The notes below the pieces were generated by a model. That model did no database searches, was not told the DNA's origin, and saw nothing but the letters and a program-made list of their open reading frames with translations. Made by a program: the position numbers and the translations under genes. Below, one piece after another: positions 17,201-27,959 of a stretch of DNA of 64,000 nucleotides; within the stretch, counting starts at the first letter, position 1, and every line of letters starts with the position of its first letter. The DNA comes from a bacterium (lineage in GTDB: Bacteria > Vulcanimicrobiota > Vulcanimicrobiia > Vulcanimicrobiales > SCRA01), in the NCBI GenBank assembly GCA_004298675.1, contig SCRI01000086.1, positions 124,001-188,000 of the forward strand, in the 5' to 3' direction.

Positions 17201-17848
17201 ATGGGGTTGACCCATCCGTCTCAGGACGGTCTGAGCTACCACGAACGGCCGGACGAGGATCTAGTCAGCGCTGCCAAGACCGGTGATAACCTGGCCATGG
17301 AGTGCCTGCTCACCAAGTATAAGAACTTCGTCCGCATCAAGGCCAAGAGCTACTTTTTGATCGGCGCGGATCGCGAGGATATCATCCAAGAAGGAATGAT
17401 CGGCCTCTATAAGGCGGTACGCGATTTCAAAGCCGACAAGCTGTCTAGCTTCCGGGCCTTTGCCGAGCTCTGCATCACCCGTCAGATCATCACCGCGATC
17501 AAGACCGCGACCCGGCAGAAGCACATTCCACTCAACCAGTACATTTCGCTCAACAAACCGATCTATGACGAGGACAGCGAACGCACGCTACTCGACGTCA
17601 TGGCGTCGGCGAAGATGTCCGATCCCGAGGAACTGGTGATCAACCAGGAGATCTCGGAAGACATCAAGGAGCGCATTCAGGAGAACCTCTCCGAACTGGA
17701 GTCGCAGGTGTTGCTGTCGTACCTGGAAGGGAAGTCCTACCAGGAGATGGCTCGCGATCTCAAGCGCCACGTGAAGTCGATCGACAACGCGCTGCAGCGT
17801 GTGAAGCGGAAGATCGAGAAGAACCTCGCGGAGATCGAGTTGCCGTAA
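17201..17848 (+). CDS. sigH: SigH-like RNA polymerase sigma factor
   Basis: A 215-residue sigma-70-family protein close in length and sequence pattern to SigH/Sigma-30 of Firmicutes. It has region 2 with ADREDIIQEGMIGLYKAV and FRAFAELCITRQIITAIK, and region 4 with LSYLEGKSYQEMARDLKRH followed by the recognition helix. ATG 17201 is supported by AGGGGGAGAG about 10 nt upstream and by the promoter 75 bp before it; a longer upstream frame starts before the transcription start. The position after rlmB matches Bacillus. Sporulation is not implied, since SigH-like factors occur in non-sporulating phyla. Confidence 0.9.
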   Translation: MGLTHPSQDGLSYHERPDEDLVSAAKTGDNLAMECLLTKYKNFVRIKAKSYFLIGADREDIIQEGMIGLYKAVRDFKADKLSSFRAFAELCITRQIITAIKTATRQKHIPLNQYISLNKPIYDEDSERTLLDVMASAKMSDPEELVINQEISEDIKERIQENLSELESQVLLSYLEGKSYQEMARDLKRHVKSIDNALQRVKRKIEKNLAEIELP

Positions 17849-20499: not shown

Positions 20500-20561
20500 A
20501 CTCAAACGGCGCTGCGCCGGAAGGGAGCCGCCGGTTCGGGCGCCAAATTGCCGCCCGGCGT

Positions 20562-20637
20562 GCGGGAGTAGCTCAGTTGGTAGAGCACTAGCCTTCCAAG
20601 CTCGGGGTCGCGGGTTCGAGTCCCGTCTCCCGCTCCA
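20562..20637 (+). tRNA. tRNA-Gly (anticodon TCC)
   Basis: Acceptor GCGGGAG pairs with CTCCCGC, the D arm is GCTC/GAGC, the anticodon loop CTTCCAA carries anticodon UCC, and the T arm is GCGGG/CCCGT. The anticodon stem CTAGC/GCTCG contains one U-C mismatch at its second pair. The CCA end is encoded and a strong terminator follows at once. Confidence 0.95.
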
Positions 20638-20680
20638 TCGTCAAAGCCCCGTCCCATAAGGGATCGGGGCTTTTTGACGA
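20638..20680 (+). terminator. Strong intrinsic terminator after tRNA-Gly
   Basis: AAAGCCCCG (20643-20651) pairs with CGGGGCTTT (20665-20673), with an inner TCCC/GGGA pairing around ATAA, and a run of five T residues. The outer TCGTC/GACGA bases also pair, so it could work in both directions. The 214 bp that follow before the pilus operon hold no gene I can support. Confidence 0.9.
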
Positions 20681-20894
20681 TGGCGACGATCGTGACCGGG
20701 TTGGCAAGCGCGGCGGACTCGCCCTTTCCGGGACAGTTCATGGAAATGCCCCGGTGAGCAGGCTTCTAGCCCAGTGTCTCGGCTTTACAGAGACTTTACG
20801 CAAGAGGTGTATATCACACTCTTGACGGCCCTTTCTGCATCGTGTACCATGCGGACCAAGCAGCCGCCAGATAGCGGCAGACGAGCAGTAAATC

Positions 20895-21845
20895 TTGCGC
20901 TGGAAGGCGGGTGTTCCCATCGCAACGCTGGCACCGTCCCACCCCGATTCCGCTCGCGGATCCACCGTCGACGCGCTCGACGCCTTGATCGATCGCGCCA
21001 TTGCCTGCGGAGCTAGCGACATCCATCTGGAGCCGCAAGCCGAGGGCGGACGGATCCGCTTCCGGATCGACGGCACGCTGCGCCCCCATCTGACGCTCCC
21101 AAGCGGCCTGTTCGGCGCGTTGTGCGCCCGCGTCAAGCTGATCGGCGAGTTGGATCTGGGCGAGCGGCGTCTGCCGCAAGACGGCCGCACCGCATTCCTA
21201 CGCGGCGAACGCACCTACGAGACGCGCATCGCGACGCTGCCGGGTGTGCTGGGCGAGAAACTCGTCGTGCGCCTATTCGATCGTGACGGCGGTCTCCGTA
21301 GTCTGGAAGAACTGGGAATGTTGCCCGCACAGCGTGCCCGTTACGAGGCGATACTGCGCGCCCCGCATGGGCTCGTGCTCATCGCCGGTCCCACGGGCTG
21401 TGGCAAGACGACGACGCTCTACTCCTCGATCGAATTGCTGGATCCACAGCGGCGTAACGTGACCACGGTAGAGGATCCCGTCGAGCGTTACATTCCCGAG
21501 ATCACGCAGGTGCAGGTTCACGCGCGCGCGGGCATGACGTTTCCCGTCGCGCTGCGGGCGCTCTTGCGTCAAGATCCCGACGTCATGATCGTCGGTGAGA
21601 TCCGCGACGGCGAGAGCGCGCGGCTCGCTGTCTCGGCAGCGCTGACCGGGCACCTCGTTCTGGCCACGGTGCACGTCAACGACGCCGAGCGGGCGCCGGC
21701 GCGGCTCTTCGATCTGGGCGTGGAGGCGCAGGCGCTCGAGGCCGCGCTGCGCTGTGTCGTCGCACAGCGGCTCGTGCCGTGCGGCGGTGCTGGAAGGACC
21801 GCGCAATACGAGTTGCGCGAGTATGGAGCCGGCCCGCAATGCTGA
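20895..21845 (+). CDS. GspE/PilB-family secretion or pilus-assembly ATPase, short form
   Basis: Cytoplasmic hexameric ATPase expected to power pilin polymerisation. The 316-residue protein holds the N2-type domain (DALIDRAIACGASDIHLEPQ) and the ATPase core with Walker A GPTGCGKTTT, the Asp box VEDPVE and Walker B DPDVMIVGEIRDGE. It lacks the N-terminal MshEN-like domain of typical PilB/GspE (over 500 residues). It also ends soon after VAQRLVPCGG, without a four-cysteine zinc element. The start is a TTG; nothing better lies upstream. It overlaps the pilT-like gene by 7 bp. Confidence 0.85.
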   Translation: MRWKAGVPIATLAPSHPDSARGSTVDALDALIDRAIACGASDIHLEPQAEGGRIRFRIDGTLRPHLTLPSGLFGALCARVKLIGELDLGERRLPQDGRTAFLRGERTYETRIATLPGVLGEKLVVRLFDRDGGLRSLEELGMLPAQRARYEAILRAPHGLVLIAGPTGCGKTTTLYSSIELLDPQRRNVTTVEDPVERYIPEITQVQVHARAGMTFPVALRALLRQDPDVMIVGEIRDGESARLAVSAALTGHLVLATVHVNDAERAPARLFDLGVEAQALEAALRCVVAQRLVPCGGAGRTAQYELREYGAGPQC

Positions 21846-22912
21846 ACGCCTCCGCCGATCTCGCCACACTGCGCTTGCACGAATTGTTCCGCATCGCTTT
21901 TCGCTCGCGTGCGTCCGATCTCCATCTTGCTGCCGGCTATCCGCCGATGATGCGAGTCGGCGGCGCCATCGCGCCACTGGCGATGGCTCACCTATCCGAA
22001 GCCGACGTCCAGGCGCTCGCGCTATCGCTCCAAGAGAACAGGACGCACAGCGCGCGTTGCGATACCCCGCAGCATGACGACTTTGCGGTGGAGTGGCCCG
22101 AGTACGGAGTGGTGCGCGTGCATCTGTTTCGCGCGGGCGGACAGCGCATCGCGCTACGCGCGCTCGGCGGTGCGGTGCCGTCGTTTGACGAACTCGGGTT
22201 GCCGCGCCGCATTCTGGAGCTGGCGTCGCTGCGCAGCGGTCTGATCGTGATTGCCGGAGCCACCGGCAGCGGTAAGACCACGACCGCGGCCGCGCTGTTG
22301 GATGCCGCCAACGAAATGGCGGCCCGGCACATCGTGACGATTGAAGAGCCCATCGAATATCGGCTGCGCGCGCGAAAAGGGCTCGTCACGCAGCGCGAGA
22401 TCGGTCTAGACGTTGCCGACGCGGCGCACGGGATTCATGCGGCTTTGCGCGAGGATCCGGACATCATCTTTCTCGGCGAACTGCGCGATGGTGACGCCGT
22501 TGAGACCGCGCTCACCGCCGCCGAAACCGGGCATCTCGTCGTGACCACGTTGCACGCGCGCGCTGCCGATGGTGCGGTCGAGCGCATCGTCGATCTCGCG
22601 CCGGGCGAACGGCGTGAACACGTGCGCCGCCAACTCGCTCAGGTGCTGGCGGGCGTCGTTTACCAGCGTCTGGTGCGACGGGCGGACGGCGCCGGACGCA
22701 CGCCCGCCGTCGAAACCCTGATTGCGACGCCGGCCGTGCGCAGCCTCGTGCGCGAAGAGAAGATCCATCAACTACGCAATGCGATAGCTACCGGGCGCGC
22801 CGTGGGAATGCAGACGCTAGCCGCACACTTGGAAGATTTGGCGCTACGCGGCACGATCGATCGGGAGACTCTGCGCGAGACGTTACGCGAGCAGACGGCA
22901 GGCGATGCCTGA
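21839..22912 (+). CDS. pilT: PilT-family twitching/retraction ATPase
   Basis: A 357-residue PilT-like ATPase that would disassemble pili or assist assembly. It shows the PilT N-terminal SDLHLAAGYPPMMRVGG, Walker A GATGSGKTTT, EEPIEYR, the Walker B segment EDPDIIFLGELRD, and TAAETGHLVVTTLHAR. AIRNEI, the usual PilT C-terminal motif, is replaced by LRNAIATG in the corresponding place. ATG 21839 lies in the end of the previous ATPase gene. It ends in overlap with the PilC-like gene. Confidence 0.87.
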   Translation: MLNASADLATLRLHELFRIAFRSRASDLHLAAGYPPMMRVGGAIAPLAMAHLSEADVQALALSLQENRTHSARCDTPQHDDFAVEWPEYGVVRVHLFRAGGQRIALRALGGAVPSFDELGLPRRILELASLRSGLIVIAGATGSGKTTTAAALLDAANEMAARHIVTIEEPIEYRLRARKGLVTQREIGLDVADAAHGIHAALREDPDIIFLGELRDGDAVETALTAAETGHLVVTTLHARAADGAVERIVDLAPGERREHVRRQLAQVLAGVVYQRLVRRADGAGRTPAVETLIATPAVRSLVREEKIHQLRNAIATGRAVGMQTLAAHLEDLALRGTIDRETLRETLREQTAGDA

Positions 22913-24128
22913 GGCCGCGCCGTTCGAGTTCATCGCGCGCCGGGCGGACGGCACACGCGCGCGCGGCCGCCTGCGCGCCGCTTCCCGGGAGGCAGCGCTA
23001 GCCTGCGTGCGGGAGCGCGCCCTGGTGCCGGTCGCTGTGCGTGCCTTGAGGCGGCGCCGCGTCATCGCGCCTCTGAGGCTGCTCGCGCCGGCTGTCGCGC
23101 AGCGCGAGCTCGTTGGTACGCTGCGGTCGTTCGCGGTACTGATGCGCGCCGGCGTACCGGTGCTGCGCACGCTTGACGTGCTTGGCGAGGAGCAGGGTGG
23201 AGAGGCGCTCAAGGCGGCGTTTGCGCGCATGCAAGCGAGCCTCGTGCGCGGCGAGCCCCTCTCGCGCGCCGCGGAGCGCGCGGGGCTGTTCTCCCCGGTG
23301 CAGCTCGCGATGATGCGCGCGGGCGAGGCCGGCGGCATGCTCGACGAGACGCTCGAGCGCGTGGCGCGGATGGCCGAGCGCGAGCACGGGATTCGCAAAC
23401 GCATCGCTTCAGCGCTGGCCTACCCGGCGATTCTGGCTGCGGCGGCGCTGCTTTCGATCATCTTGTTGATCGGTACCCTGACCCCGGCGTTGGCGCGCCT
23501 CTTCGCCGAGCTGTCCGCTCCGCTGCCGCCGTCGACCATCGCGCTGCTAGCAGTGGGGCGGCTGCTGCGTTCGCCGTTGTTCTTGGGCGCGGCCGGAGCG
23601 GCGGCGCTCTGCGCGGGAATAGGGCTGCGTGCACTGTCCCGCTCGGCTCACGCAGCCGCCAGCGCGGAGCGGTTGGCGTTGCGCCTCCCGCTGATCGGCT
23701 CGCTGCGCCGCGCCATCGTGGTCTCCCGTGTCGCTCGTACCCTAGGCGCGCTGCTGCGCGGCGGTCTCCCCGCGCTCGAAGCGATCGAGCTCTCCGCGCA
23801 ATGCTCCGGTAGTCCGGTGGCCGCGCAGGCGCTGCGCGAGTTGCGCCGCTCGCTGCGTGAGGGCGAAGGGCTGGCGCAGCGCCTGGTCGCCGGCACGCTC
23901 TTCCCCGCACTCTTCGTAAACATGGTCCGCGCCGGCGAGGAGAGCGGCTCGCTCGACACACTCTTGGAGTCGTTGGCGGAATTTTACGACGTCGAAGCGG
24001 AGGCCGCGCTGCACGTCTTGACGACGTTGATCGAGCCGACTCTGATCGCCTTGCTGGGCGGCGTGATCGCCGCCATCGCCTTAGCCGTCTTCGTTCCGCT
24101 ATATGCTTTGATCGGGAGCCTACGATGA
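22905..24128 (+). CDS. pilC: GspF/PilC-family inner-membrane platform protein
   Basis: A 407-residue polytopic protein with two tandem T2SSF domains. Each ends in the family pattern MMRAGEAGGMLDETLERVA or MVRAGEESGSLDTLLESLA, and there are three membrane helices. It anchors the ATPase to the pseudopilus machinery. The ATG overlaps the pilT stop, and the gene ends in an ATGA overlap with the sigma factor gene. Confidence 0.92.
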   Translation: MPEAAPFEFIARRADGTRARGRLRAASREAALACVRERALVPVAVRALRRRRVIAPLRLLAPAVAQRELVGTLRSFAVLMRAGVPVLRTLDVLGEEQGGEALKAAFARMQASLVRGEPLSRAAERAGLFSPVQLAMMRAGEAGGMLDETLERVARMAEREHGIRKRIASALAYPAILAAAALLSIILLIGTLTPALARLFAELSAPLPPSTIALLAVGRLLRSPLFLGAAGAAALCAGIGLRALSRSAHAAASAERLALRLPLIGSLRRAIVVSRVARTLGALLRGGLPALEAIELSAQCSGSPVAAQALRELRRSLREGEGLAQRLVAGTLFPALFVNMVRAGEESGSLDTLLESLAEFYDVEAEAALHVLTTLIEPTLIALLGGVIAAIALAVFVPLYALIGSLR

Positions 24129-24835
24129 CCGCGAACCCAACCGAGCGCGCCACGGTCGAAGGTGAGGCGGTGCTCGCGCGCTGGCTACTCACTCGCGCGG
24201 TCGCCGATCGCAATGCGTTGGTCGAGCATTTCTGGTATCTCTGCCGGCGCGCCGCTCTGCGGCTGCGGCGCGACGCGTTGGATCGCGAAGATGCCGAACA
24301 AGTGGCGGCGCTCGGGTTGATCAAGGCCGCCGAGTATTTCCGCCCTGGCGAAGGCGTTCCGTTCGAAGCGTACGCGTGGACGATGGTGCTCGGCGAGCTG
24401 CTCCACTACATCCGGGACTCGACGCCGCTCGTGCGCGTGCCGCGGCGCTTGCGCGCGGCCGAGCGGCGCGCGGGCGTCATGCGCGACGAGTTGCGCCAGC
24501 GCATGCTGCGCGAGCCCACCAACTCCGAAGTGGCCGCCGAGCTCGGCGTCGACGTCGCGGAGATCGACGAGGCCGAGCGCGCCCGGCGCGCGCAGCGTTT
24601 CGAGGACCTCGCCCACGTGCGCGAGGGTAGTACCGTGGGGCTCTCCACGCCGGACCGCGTTGCACTCGACGTGGCCTTGGACCGGCTCGACGAACGCGAG
24701 CGGCTGCTGGTACTAGCGACCTTCGGCGCGGGGCGCACGCAGACCGAGCTCGGCGCGCATCTGGGATGCTCGCAGCGGCACGTTTCGCGGCTGTTAAGCC
24801 GTGCCTTGAAGAAGATGGCCGACCACCTTCGTTAG
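24125..24835 (+). CDS. Sigma-70-family RNA polymerase sigma factor encoded within the pilus operon
   Basis: A 236-residue protein with region 2 (DREDAEQVAALGLIKAAEYF, then FEAYAWTMVLGELLHYIRD), a region 3-like segment (REPTNSEVAAELGVDVAEI) and region 4 (ERLLVLATFGAGRTQTELGA, then CSQRHVSRLLSRALKKM). The architecture resembles SigB/SigF/FliA-type alternative sigma factors. It is translationally coupled to the upstream pilC-like gene and lies 60 bp before the pilin gene. It may direct transcription of the pilin or of the operon itself; no anti-sigma factor gene is adjacent. Confidence 0.88.
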   Translation: MTANPTERATVEGEAVLARWLLTRAVADRNALVEHFWYLCRRAALRLRRDALDREDAEQVAALGLIKAAEYFRPGEGVPFEAYAWTMVLGELLHYIRDSTPLVRVPRRLRAAERRAGVMRDELRQRMLREPTNSEVAAELGVDVAEIDEAERARRAQRFEDLAHVREGSTVGLSTPDRVALDVALDRLDERERLLVLATFGAGRTQTELGAHLGCSQRHVSRLLSRALKKMADHLR

Positions 24836-24895
24836 CGCGCGTCTGCAGAGCGGCTGTACGGGGCATTGCGCTGCCACCAGAAAGGCGGTTCAGCA

Positions 24896-25396
24896 ATGCG
24901 GCGTTCGCCAGGATTCACGTTGATGGAGCTGATGGTGGTGGTAGCCGTCATCTCCGTGCTCGCCACGGTCATCATTCCCAACTTCATTCATGCTCGCGCG
25001 CAAGGCGTGACGGCGGCCTGCGAGAGTAACCTGCGTCAGATCGCGACCGCGATGGAGCTATACTACGCCGACAACGGAGCCTATCCGAACAGCGGCGCCG
25101 TTACGCCGGCGCTCTTCGCAGGCGGCGTCGCGCCCGCGGAGAGCTACCTGGGGCAGACCCCGATCGACCCCGCTGACAATCACCCGTACGCCGTGCGCGT
25201 GCTGGCCGCCAGCGGCAATACGCCGGCGCGCTATATCATCGAAGACACCGGCGGGCACGACCCGAGCACCACGCGCGCCCTGACCGATCGCGACAACCCC
25301 AGCACCGCCGGCCAGGTTCAGATCAATGCCGACTACCTGGTCTACTCGTCGGCTAACGGCCTGCAATCGGCCGAGAATCCCAACGAAAGCCCGTGA
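24896..25396 (+). CDS. Type IV pilin / type II pseudopilin
   Basis: A 166-residue prepilin with a short basic leader (MRRSPG) cut before FTLMELMVVVAVISVLATVI, with Glu at position 5 of the mature protein. That is the type III signal recognised by prepilin peptidase. The C-terminal domain contains NLRQIATAMELYYADNGAYP, as in GspG-like major pseudopilins. ATG 24896 sits right at the leader, with AAAGGCGG about 8 nt upstream; a longer frame begins 30 bp earlier. The next gene is its probable peptidase. Confidence 0.9.
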   Translation: MRRSPGFTLMELMVVVAVISVLATVIIPNFIHARAQGVTAACESNLRQIATAMELYYADNGAYPNSGAVTPALFAGGVAPAESYLGQTPIDPADNHPYAVRVLAASGNTPARYIIEDTGGHDPSTTRALTDRDNPSTAGQVQINADYLVYSSANGLQSAENPNESP

Positions 25397-25833
25397 GCTG
25401 GCTCACTCTCGCCGTGCTCGCCGCTGCGCTAGCGGTGCATGTCACGACGGACCTGCGCGAAGGGTACGTCTACGACGTCGCCGTCTACCCGCCATTGCTC
25501 GTGCTGGCGGCGCTGGCGTGGGGCGCGGGGCGCCTAGCCGACGGCTGTACCGGCGCGCTGGCGTGCGCGGCCGTGCCGGCAGCGCTGACCGCTGTGACGC
25601 GCGGACGCGGCATGGGCATCGGTGATGCGAAGGTGGCCGGCCTGATGGGCATGGCGTTGGGGCCGTCGGCCGGCGTGCTGGCGCTCGGCTGCTCATTTAT
25701 GTGGGGCGCCGGCGTGGCGCTTGCGCTCGTGGCCGTACGCCGTCTGCGCTGGGGCGCGCGGATGGCCTTCGTGCCGTTCTTAGGGCTGGGATTCCTCACG
25801 GTCGTCTTTATGCAGCACGCTGGGGTACGCTAG
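25393..25833 (+). CDS. A24-family prepilin peptidase, short form
   Basis: A 146-residue membrane protease with about five hydrophobic helices. The two catalytic aspartates lie in TTDLREGYVYD and in GMGIGDAKVAG, the second being the GxGDxK signature. The N-terminal cysteine-rich methylase domain of full PilD is missing, so it probably cleaves but does not N-methylate pilins, like archaeal-type or TadV-like peptidases. The GTG start overlaps the pilin stop. Confidence 0.87.
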   Translation: MSWLTLAVLAAALAVHVTTDLREGYVYDVAVYPPLLVLAALAWGAGRLADGCTGALACAAVPAALTAVTRGRGMGIGDAKVAGLMGMALGPSAGVLALGCSFMWGAGVALALVAVRRLRWGARMAFVPFLGLGFLTVVFMQHAGVR

Positions 25834-25886
25834 GGCGGCTTGCCTGTCCCAAGGAGTGAACGGGCTCCGGGAGAACATGCCCACCT

Positions 25887-26564
25887 ATGGATCTCTCGCT
25901 GCTCCGCAAGATCCCGCTGTTCTCCGGGTTTGACGACGAGCAGATCGCCGAAGTCGGAAAGCTGGTGCAGACGCGGCGCGTCCCCAAGCACCAGATCATC
26001 GTGTACGAAGGTGACCCCGGCGATTCGTTCTACGTGTTGCTCAAGGGTTCGGTTGCCGTCTCGCACATGACCGGCGAGGGTAAGGAGACCATCCTCTCCA
26101 TCCTCAAAGAGGGCGACTTCTTCGGCGAGATGGCGGTGCTGGACTCGTCGCTGCGCTCCGCCTCCGTGAAGACGCTCTCCGACGTCGAAGTGGGGCTGGT
26201 CACACGCGCCGACTTCCTCGACCTGCTTGGCAAGAATCCGTCGATTGGCCGCTCGCTGGTGATCGCGCTCTCGGAGCGTCTGCGCGACGCCAACCAGCAG
26301 ATCGCGGCCTCGGCCTACCAGGACATCCGCAAACGCCTGGCGGCGCTGTTGTTGAAACTGGCGGAGAAGTTCGGCGAGCAGACGCCCGATGGCACGCGCA
26401 TCACACAGCGCCTGACCAACCAAGAGATGGCGAGCATGGTCGGCACCACGCGCGAGACCGTCAACCGCACCCTCAACAAGTTCTGGGACGAGCAGTTGAT
26501 CGACATGCGCACGGCCTACATCGTCATCAAGGACCCCAGCGCGCTGGAGAAGCAGCTAGAGTAG
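25887..26564 (+). CDS. Crp/Fnr-family transcriptional regulator
   Basis: A 225-residue regulator with an N-terminal cyclic-nucleotide-binding domain and a C-terminal winged helix. The phosphate-binding cassette GDFFGEMAVLDSSLRSASV has the Arg expected for cNMP binding, and LTNQEMASMVGTTRETVNRT is the DNA-recognition helix-turn-helix. No Cys cluster for Fe-S sensing is seen at the N-terminus, so a CRP-like rather than FNR-like ligand is more likely. Being set inside the pilus gene run, it may control pili. Confidence 0.92.
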   Translation: MDLSLLRKIPLFSGFDDEQIAEVGKLVQTRRVPKHQIIVYEGDPGDSFYVLLKGSVAVSHMTGEGKETILSILKEGDFFGEMAVLDSSLRSASVKTLSDVEVGLVTRADFLDLLGKNPSIGRSLVIALSERLRDANQQIAASAYQDIRKRLAALLLKLAEKFGEQTPDGTRITQRLTNQEMASMVGTTRETVNRTLNKFWDEQLIDMRTAYIVIKDPSALEKQLE

Positions 26565-26598
26565 TCTAGCGGGGGCGCCGCGCGGGCATTGCGCGTGC

Positions 26599-27453
26599 GT
26601 GCCGATCTTCGCGCGCTTGCCGCTGCCCCTGGGAGTCCATGTCGATGCCGGCGGCTTCGCCATCTGCGAGCTGCACGCCGTGGCCCGCGGCGCGCAGCTG
26701 CGGCGCGTGATCTTCGAACGCTTCGACGGACGCGACCCCGCGCAGGCGCTGGCAGCGGCGGTGCGCGCCAACGGCTGGCGAAGCCGCAAATGCGTCGTTG
26801 CCGTCGCTACCGAGTGTGCCTCGCTGCACGTGCTGCATCTGCCGGGAATGCCGGCGCGCGAGCGGCGCGCCGCGGCCTATCTGGAGGCCGAGCGTCTGGC
26901 CCCGGCGCGCGAGGTGCCTCTGAGCATCGACGTCGAGCCGCTTGCCGGAGCCTGGCTGCTCGCGGCGGCGCCGCGCGCGGAGGTGTTGGGTGCGGCCGAG
27001 CGCGCGCGGGCTGCGGGGTTGCGCGTGCGCGCGGTCGACGTCGAGACGCTCGCTCTGGCGCGCGCGGCCGGCGCGCTGCCCGGCGATGCGATCGTCTGCG
27101 GCGGCAGCGCGCGCAGCATCCTGCATCTCGTGACGGAGAGCGCGCCGTTCGTGCGCGCGTGGTCCCGGCGCGTCAGCTGCACGGAACTGGCGGCGCCGTT
27201 GGCGGAGGCGCTGGAGTTCGCGGCTAGCCGCGGCTTCGGTGCCGCGCGCCGCGTCCTGCTCGCCGGGACGTTGGCCGCGGAGGACGGCGGCAGCGCGCGG
27301 CTGCAAGATGCGTTGGGGCGAGTTGTCGCGCCGGCCGAATTGTGCGCGCAGGTCGCGGTCTTGGAGCATCCGCTGGATTACGTTCGTGCCAGCGCGCCGC
27401 ATTGGCTGACCGCGTGCGGCCTCGCGCTGTGGAGTCTCGCGTCGTGCGCGTGA
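26599..27453 (+). CDS. PilM-like pilus assembly protein (divergent)
   Basis: A 284-residue protein with an actin-like fold pattern: LGVHVDAGGFAICEL at the start and CVVAVATECASLHVLHLPGM resemble PilM. The nucleotide-binding glycine motifs are weak. The call rests partly on context: it follows pilus genes and overlaps a PilN-like gene. PilM normally binds the PilN cytoplasmic N-terminus. The composition is extremely Ala/Arg-rich. The GTG start at 26599 is the best available. Confidence 0.6.
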   Translation: MPIFARLPLPLGVHVDAGGFAICELHAVARGAQLRRVIFERFDGRDPAQALAAAVRANGWRSRKCVVAVATECASLHVLHLPGMPARERRAAAYLEAERLAPAREVPLSIDVEPLAGAWLLAAAPRAEVLGAAERARAAGLRVRAVDVETLALARAAGALPGDAIVCGGSARSILHLVTESAPFVRAWSRRVSCTELAAPLAEALEFAASRGFGAARRVLLAGTLAAEDGGSARLQDALGRVVAPAELCAQVAVLEHPLDYVRASAPHWLTACGLALWSLASCA

Positions 27454-27959
27454 ATCTGCTGGAGCGCCGGCAGCCCGTTGCACCCGCGGCCCGCGCGGCG
27501 CGCGTGCTGCCGGCGCTAGCGCTCGTGCTGGCGTTGGCAGCGGCGGCCGCGCACGCGGCGGCGGCAAGCAGTGCCGAACGCGCCGCGCGCATCGCCCAGC
27601 TGCGCGCCGTGGCGCAAGCGCGGGCCGCGCCGGTGGAGCGCCTGCGCGCGCAGGTGACGCAGCTCGAACGCGCCGCAAGCGAGGCCGAGCATCTGCGTGC
27701 GACGGGTCCGCGCCTGGCCGCCCAGCTCGCGCGCTTGGCCGATGCGCTCCCGCGCGCTGCGTGGCTCACGGCGCTGGAGGTCGAGTCCGACGGCGCGTTG
27801 CGCATAAGCGGGCGTGCGCCCCAGTTTGCAACGGTGGGCGCGGTGCTCGCGGCGCTCGAGCGCGTGCATGCGTTCGGTGCGCCGCATCTGCTCGACGCGC
27901 AGCGCCCCAGCGATACCTCTGCGGCCCTGCGTTTTCAGATGGAGACACGCGCGCCGTAG
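27444..27959 (+). CDS. PilN-like membrane protein
   Basis: A 171-residue protein starting (M)RVNLLERR, like the PilM-binding INLLP motif of PilN. A single membrane helix (about residues 21-42), a coiled coil of about 50 residues and a small C-terminal ferredoxin-like domain follow (WLTALEVESDGALRISGRA). GTG 27444 was preferred because it keeps the two residues before NLL; GTG 27450, in a GTGA overlap with the previous stop, is an alternative. No PilO, PilP or PilQ gene follows. Confidence 0.6.
   Translation: MRVNLLERRQPVAPAARAARVLPALALVLALAAAAAHAAAASSAERAARIAQLRAVAQARAAPVERLRAQVTQLERAASEAEHLRATGPRLAAQLARLADALPRAAWLTALEVESDGALRISGRAPQFATVGAVLAALERVHAFGAPHLLDAQRPSDTSAALRFQMETRAP

Follow-up and report, generated by a model that had tools for sequence, protein, structure and literature searches.

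The type IV pilus (T4P) gene cluster described here, from a bacterial phylum about which little is known, most probably Eremiobacterota/Vulcanimicrobiota, encodes, between its platform-protein gene and its pilin gene, a group 3 sigma factor for which we coined the name SigP (24125-24835). SigP is very probably a dedicated pilus sigma factor, with sigma-A making the pilus machine together with SigP, and SigP directing the pilin genes. The gene, its linkage to pilus genes, its overlap with pilC, the conserved promoter motif, the joint loss with pili and the co-variation of the -35 box with region 4.2 are all observed directly in the sequences. The window, that is, the whole stretch of 64,000 nucleotides analysed, belongs to a 3.03 Mb genome that is 98.5% complete. 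Families, genera, genomes, contigs and loci are designated by f, g, G, C and L numbers, respectively.

A sigma factor gene overlapping pilC

Genes for PilB/GspE, PilT, PilC/GspF, pilin, prepilin peptidase, PilM and PilN lie together in the window and constitute a type IV pilus assembly cluster. Gene starts were taken from a simple gene caller. The genes and associated features are as follows:

20895..21845, + strand: PilB/GspE extension ATPase, start uncertain (T2SSE 1.4e-95; type_II_gspE 1e-98; pilB 1.7e-91)
21839..22912, + strand: PilT retraction ATPase, start uncertain (TIGR01420, 356 bits; cut-off 319)
22905..24128, + strand: PilC/GspF platform protein (T2SSF 1e-48; GspF 3.2e-78)
24114..24128, + strand: coupling junction, a Shine-Dalgarno-like GGGAG followed by the pilC/sigP ATGA stop/start overlap (sequence; NTGA conserved in f1/f2)
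24125..24835, + strand: SigP, group 3 sigma factor of 236 aa with regions 2, 3 and 4 (Pfam, NCBIfam and PDB matches; tree)
24767..24808, + strand: region 4.2 recognition helix CSQRHVSRLLSRAL, predicted reader of the -35 box (alignment; helix type tracks the -35 box)
24896..25396, + strand: type IV pilin with class III signal GFTLMELM (N_methyl 1.2e-7, T2SSG; GspG/ComGC/PilA models)
25393..25833, + strand: A24 prepilin peptidase; its gene shares 4 bp with that of the pilin (Peptidase_A24 1.3e-8)
25887..26564, + strand: Crp/Fnr-family regulator within the pilus cluster (cNMP_binding 1.7e-25, HTH_Crp_2)
26599..27453, + strand: PilM, GTG start (PilM_2 9.6e-7)
27429..27959, + strand: PilN, start from the gene caller (PilN 3.9e-8)

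The sigP ATG at 24125 lies within the ATGA that holds the pilC stop codon, and the GGGAG sequence (24114-24118) ends 6 nt before it. The preliminary description of this DNA had placed a sigma factor gene between pilC, with an ATGA overlap, and the pilin gene, which the overlap and the presence of regions 2, 3 and 4 confirm. It had also reported no adjacent anti-sigma factor gene, and this was borne out by our profile search, which found no FlgM- or RsbW-type anti-sigma gene and no STAS partner in 20895-27959, a region made up of pil genes, the sigma factor gene and the Crp-family regulator gene.

The Crp/Fnr-family gene, also present in f3 pilus clusters, is a candidate input to pilus control. 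Between the A24 peptidase gene and this regulator gene (~25846-25880), the strongly conserved sequence GCCTGTCCCAAGGAGTGAAC(A/G)GGC forms an inverted repeat around AAGGAG, possibly an operator or an RNA hairpin controlling the Crp-family gene. A second sigma factor gene at 17201-17848 (+ strand), downstream of cysS and rlmB, matches SigH models for sporulation/competence (356 bits, cut-off 208; spore_sigH 336, cut-off 295); no spores are known from this organism.

Family placement of SigP

SigP matched the Pfam models of sigma-70 region 2 (2e-12), region 3 (PF04539, 4e-8; 33.7 bits, cut-off 25.3) and region 4 (7e-15), each exceeding its curated cut-off. Its top NCBIfam model was TIGR02980 SigB/SigF/SigG, at 2.7e-44 and 151.6 bits, which is below the curated cut-off of 234 bits. 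The FliA/WhiG model TIGR02479 (1.2e-25, 90.6 bits; cut-off 189.6 bits) and the cyanobacterial SigF model PRK07408 (121.4 bits; cut-off 261 bits) likewise scored below their cut-offs. The closest solved structures were SigB of S. aureus, SigF of Geobacillus and FliA of E. coli. Judged by sequence, SigP is closer to SigB/SigF than to FliA. The label "SigB/FliA-like" in the preliminary description holds on its SigB/SigF side, where TIGR02980 is the best model, but not on its FliA side, where the match is weaker and below the cut-off.

In a tree of 46 SigP sequences, 20 paralogues and 3 reference sigma factors (SigB, a non-cyanobacterial SigF and FliA), SigP formed a group of its own (support 95/85), opposite an RsbV-RsbW-linked paralogue, SigB, SigF and FliA. 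Based on alignments, the region 3.2 linker of f1/f2 SigP, including that of the window, is 10-16 residues shorter than in SigF/SigB, and the longer linker is retained in f3 SigP.

Three other assignments were considered and rejected. Membership of the FliA family was rejected on the score below the cut-off, the cluster without FlgM and a different promoter; an ECF class, on the presence of region 3; and a chance neighbourhood with pil genes, on the phylum-wide synteny and the NTGA overlap.

Linkage of SigP to pilus genes

We searched 149 genomes of the phylum for SigP, fetched about 90 neighbourhoods from the class and typed the neighbouring genes by BLAST. The survey is a within-phylum one of mostly metagenome assemblies, and its locus counts are phylogenetically dependent rather than independent because the loci are related. 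SigP stands beside T4P genes in 74 of 91 loci of the class: directly downstream of PilC in 63, directly upstream of PilB in 8 and elsewhere among pil genes in 3. The other 17 loci have no pil genes nearby, and all 17 are from genomes that lack T4P; every T4P-bearing genome of the class that has SigP carries it next to pil genes. The order GspE-PilT-PilC-SigP is kept, as far as the contigs reach, in eleven further families (f5-f15), often with a pilin gene next. In f4, f16 and G132, the pilin gene follows PilC with no intervening sigma factor gene. The preliminary description had named scattered homologues without pilus linkage as a refuting result; the homologues are not scattered, and the co-occurrence survey that it proposed came out in favour of a phylum-wide linkage.

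A 4-bp NTGA overlap of pilC and sigP is available at nearly all PilC-SigP junctions in f1/f2, which argues that the overlap is not due to chance; f3 junctions have a gap of 2-5 nt. In nine f3 loci (L065, L083, L113-L115, L118, L120, L126 and L127), one or two membrane proteins of ~480-500 aa are encoded between SigP and the pilins; by eye they resemble glycosyltransferases, and a role in pilin glycosylation is possible.

A two-box promoter motif at pilin genes

The second refuting result named in the preliminary description, the lack of a promoter motif common to pilus genes, did not occur either, and the search that it had proposed upstream of pilin operons found such a motif: a two-box element, GTC(T/C)-N16-GGG(C/T)A(T/C), lies before pilin genes across the phylum and is referred to here as the SigP-type promoter. 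The predicted promoters in the window are as follows:

20745..20771, - strand: possible divergent SigP-type site GGCT-N16-GGGCATT with one mismatch (also in L006 and L007)
20822..20850, + strand: predicted sigma-A type promoter TTGACG-N17-TACCAT before pilB-pilT-pilC-sigP (conserved hexamers)
24841..24867, + strand: SigP-type promoter before the pilin gene, made up of GTCT at 24841-24844, N16 and GGGCATT at 24861-24867 (cross-species conservation)
26564..26590, + strand: SigP-type promoter ahead of pilM-pilN, GTCT-N16-GGGCATT, with 8 nt between it and the GTG start codon

Across three species from the genus of the window, the GTCT and GGGCATT boxes before the pilin gene and pilM are invariant, with a diverged spacer. 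As 8 nt separate the downstream -10 box from the GTG, the pilM mRNA may be leaderless. The exact sequence GTCT-N16-GGGCATT occurs at two sites in the window (24841 and 26564) and, at spacer 16, at only three places genome-wide. The third place is before a gene for a secreted/lipoprotein-like protein (G000:C83:22276, L164), ~2 kb from a minor pilin gene that likewise bears the motif; the orthologue of this secreted protein gene in another genome (G002:C255:6335, L160) also has GTCT-N16-GGGCATT directly upstream.

A first search expression, GTCT..GGGCAT, was too narrow and returned few sites outside the genus; with GGG(C/T/A)A(C/T) as the alignment anchor, GTCC and GCAT variants of the -35 box came to light. 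The junction between the sigma factor and pilin genes was compared in 94 loci: GTCN-N16-(G/T)GG(C/T/A)A(C/T) was present with a spacer of 16 in 29 loci, against ~0.25 in control stretches; a spacer of 17 was found in 6 loci, and other spacers in 0-3. Over the 1.48 Mb of SigP-survey loci, 71 motif sites have spacer 16, versus 10-22 at other spacers. Most f3 clusters have GTCT(A/G)-N14-16-GGGCA(T/C) ahead of a pilin gene, and f12, f13 and f14 have GTCT-N15/16-GGGTAT. A genome-wide scan of f2 for exact GTCC-N16-GGGCAC was too noisy to define regulons by itself; it exposed the g5 sites described below.

In f4 and f16, which have no linked SigP and serve as a natural control, pilin promoters read by eye are of the TTGAC/TTGATT-N17-TATAAT type. 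Pilin promoters in f15 (G140) and f5 (G008) are sigma-A-like as well, yet SigP is present, and these sites count against a simple rule that pairs SigP with the motif. Some linked pilin genes also lack a clear motif, e.g., at L066, L122 and L123.

The motif is also present at pilin genes that are not linked to sigP. In genus g38, the major pilin gene is far from sigP (229 kb in G118) and keeps the -10 box, with GGGCAC located 69-72 nt before the GFTLIE codons. Considering major and minor pilin starts of g38, G(C/A)AT-N16-GGGCA(C/T) precedes 15 of 28, with a background of 2 sites in 294 kb of strand sequence; one further start has a spacer of 15, and no other spacer was found. In the window's own genome, the unlinked minor pilin gene C83:19987 is preceded by GTCC-N16-GGGGCATT; in G001, the corresponding gene has GTCG-N16-GGGGCATT.

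Proposed regulation of the pilus genes

The site at 20822-20850 is the only sigma-70-like promoter found in 20500-26700 (shuffled sequences give 0.4), and neither of its hexamers differs among three species of the genus. No SigP-type site indicative of autoregulation was seen before pilB in the window, where the sites found are the sigma-A one and the reverse, one-mismatch one. Just upstream of the pilB promoter (~20780-20815), CTTTACAGAGACTTTAC includes two CTTTAC copies conserved in three species, possibly an activator site; a repeat scan of 20.7-20.9 kb found no repeats.

We propose that the sigma-A promoter transcribes pilB-pilT-pilC-sigP and that sigP translation would be coupled to that of pilC through the NTGA overlap, so that the amount of SigP would be proportional to motor and platform. 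RNA polymerase with SigP would then recognise GTC(T/C)-N16-GGG(C/T)A(T/C) before the pilin-peptidase operon, pilMN and the unlinked minor-pilin gene; with SigP-type promoters at the pilin genes, the filament subunits would follow the machine. This temporal order, machine before filament, is what we infer from the arrangement of genes and promoters. With no anti-sigma gene adjacent, dosing of SigP through the coupling is the possible restraint that we favour.

The preliminary description had suggested a built-in switch, in which assembling the machine would raise a sigma factor for pilin or partner operons, as FliA does for flagella. The non-scattered homologues and the common motif make a sigma factor produced with the machine and used for the pilin genes the best-supported reading of that switch, while a sensing of assembly goes beyond the evidence; the likeness to FliA would be one of hierarchy only, not of family membership. 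A checkpoint of the FliA/FlgM kind, in which an unrecognised anti-sigma factor would hold SigP until it is released or exported upon completion of the pilus base, would fit the location beside pilC and the flagella-like hierarchy of machine and sigma factor first, filament second. However, there is no FlgM- or RsbW-type gene in the pilus cluster, and the sole anti-sigma/anti-anti-sigma pair seen in the loci examined belongs to the paralogue. The lack of such an adjacent gene leaves the checkpoint unsupported, and we consider it unlikely.

A more far-reaching version of the dedicated pilus sigma factor is put forward tentatively, as a possibility only. SigP would be the founding member of a class of sigma factors that spans the phylum and has no anti-sigma factors. 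Translational coupling to pilC would let the count of pilus machines directly set pilin transcription, and sigma factor and promoter would have co-evolved over the history of the phylum, including a re-coded -35 box, with the region 3.2 finger shortened in the window's order.

Joint loss with pili and SigP in genomes without pili

Within the order, leaving out genus g5, 62 genomes have both SigP and PilT, 5 have SigP without PilT, 3 have PilT without SigP and 15 have neither (Fisher 5.7e-10), with PilT presence called by TIGR01420 and some absences perhaps due to assembly gaps. SigP and PilT are jointly absent in about 12 genera. Three genomes besides g5 keep SigP without PilT, and in two more, PilT is missing at a contig edge. 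In G035 (L239 and L267), PilT is present, no SigP was found and the pilin gene directly follows pilC; here, the sigma factor has apparently been lost and the pilin gene joined to the machine operon.

The 16 genomes of g5 have kept SigP, and PilT is absent from them. Their SigP gene abuts aroC (chorismate synthase) and is divergent from genes for GT87-type membrane proteins; L067, L069, L080, L087, L088 and L095 are such loci with SigP and no pilus genes. In T4P-bearing genomes, aroC closes the pilus cluster and lies 6-9 kb downstream of SigP, so the pilus genes have seemingly been lost from around the g5 sigma factor gene. It looks as if g5 descended from T4P-bearing ancestors and its SigP is a relic put to another use. 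In G036, G037 and G053, all of g5, GTCC-N16-GGGCAC faces the divergent GT87-type gene, which suggests a new SigP target in this genus. The survival of the sigma factor without T4P in g5 and the three other genomes indicates that SigP can acquire other targets.

These same g5 loci, with SigP beside aroC and the motif facing the GT87-type gene, would also suit a reading in which SigP is a passenger with a role in a general programme for stress or the surface, and read-through transcription started at the pilB promoter accounts for most of the pilin made. Such read-through could also express the window's pilin, and the short gap between the sigma factor and pilin genes is in keeping with it. Nevertheless, the motif is present at pilin genes far from sigP, SigP and PilT are lost jointly, and g5 has the appearance of a relic of T4P-bearing ancestors; we regard this explanation as quite improbable.

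Co-variation of region 4.2 and the -35 box

A SigP helix of the SRRH, SQRH or STRQ type goes with a GTC(C/T/A/G) -35 box, and an SQSH or SQSQ helix (g38, g27 and g37) mostly with GCAT or GAAT. The corresponding helix of the paralogue is SQMH(V/I)SRLQ in 17 of 17 genomes compared, g38 included. That the SigP helix changes with the -35 box while the paralogue helix does not favours SigP as the reader of the pilin promoter motif, a role that we assign to it from these sequence comparisons. The switch of helix and -35 box is essentially one evolutionary event, and the evidence from it is a correlation.

The paralogue locus L143 (G000:C3, 5594-7192) encodes, next to alaS, a STAS anti-anti-sigma factor, a HATPase (HATPase_c_2) anti-sigma factor and a SigB/F-type sigma factor. 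By its gene content, it is a partner-switching module separate from SigP, with region 4.2 almost invariant across the class. It is very unlikely that this RsbV-RsbW-linked paralogue reads the motif and SigP does something else: the paralogue is widespread, and a SigB/F-type factor is expected to prefer GGG-containing -10 boxes, but its recognition helix does not differ between g38 and other genera despite the changed -35 box, it is present in f16, whose examined pilin upstream regions lack the motif, and the T4P linkage and joint loss belong to SigP.

Significance

If SigP is the dedicated pilus sigma factor, the pili of an entire phylum would be under a flagellum-like two-step programme whose switch is part of the machine operon, and pilin and minor-pilin genes would be predictable from the promoter motif. 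Additionally, the phylum would offer a natural series of matched changes in sigma region 4.2 and the -35 box, with the unchanged paralogue as a control. A literature search, conducted mostly outside subscription journals, found no report that treats both a sigma factor and type IV pili in Eremiobacterota. Vulcanimicrobium alpinus WC8-2 is a cultivated, phototactic organism with type IV pili and a complete genome of 3.50 Mbp (PMC9758169); with this cultivated member of the phylum, the predictions for SigP are testable.

Comparison with known systems

The hierarchy proposed for SigP is like that of FliA/sigma-28, with structure genes first, the sigma factor made alongside and filament genes last. 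FliA recognises the promoter TAAA-N15-GCCGATAA. SigP differs from FliA in its cluster without FlgM, in its predicted GTCT-N16-GGGCAT promoter and in its link to a pilus, not a flagellum.

By analogy, the nearest precedent for SigP is cyanobacterial SigF driving pilA. Cyanobacterial SigF (Slr1564 in Synechocystis) is needed for pilA transcription and recognises the pilA promoter in vitro (PMC2758279); the major pilin is its stringent target, both in vivo and in vitro (PMC2758279; PMC6495340). In Nostoc punctiforme, pilA is strictly SigF-dependent, and pilB-C and pilM-Q depend on SigJ (PMC6495340). In these sources, sigF is autoregulated, and the core promoter of SigF consists of TAGGC (-32) and GGTAA (-12) (PMC2758279; PMC6495340). 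SigP would share with cyanobacterial SigF its group 3, SigB-type character, pilin as the main target and a G-rich -10-like element. Unlike in cyanobacteria, the sigP gene lies inside pilB-T-C and overlaps pilC, the motif also fronts pilM and minor pilin genes, and the PRK07408 score is below the cut-off.

With SigB/SigF of Bacillota, SigP has in common the best profile (TIGR02980), the best structures and a -10 box, GGGCAT/GGGTAT, comparable to the SigB consensus GGGTAT (as quoted in PMC2758279). In contrast to those RsbW/SpoIIAB-controlled factors, it has no RsbV/RsbW partners, a shorter region 3.2 linker and a clade of its own. Four features are new relative to these systems: the phylum, the constant position of the gene within the machine operon where its start overlaps a stop codon, the class of promoter, and the recognition helix that changed in step with the -35 box.
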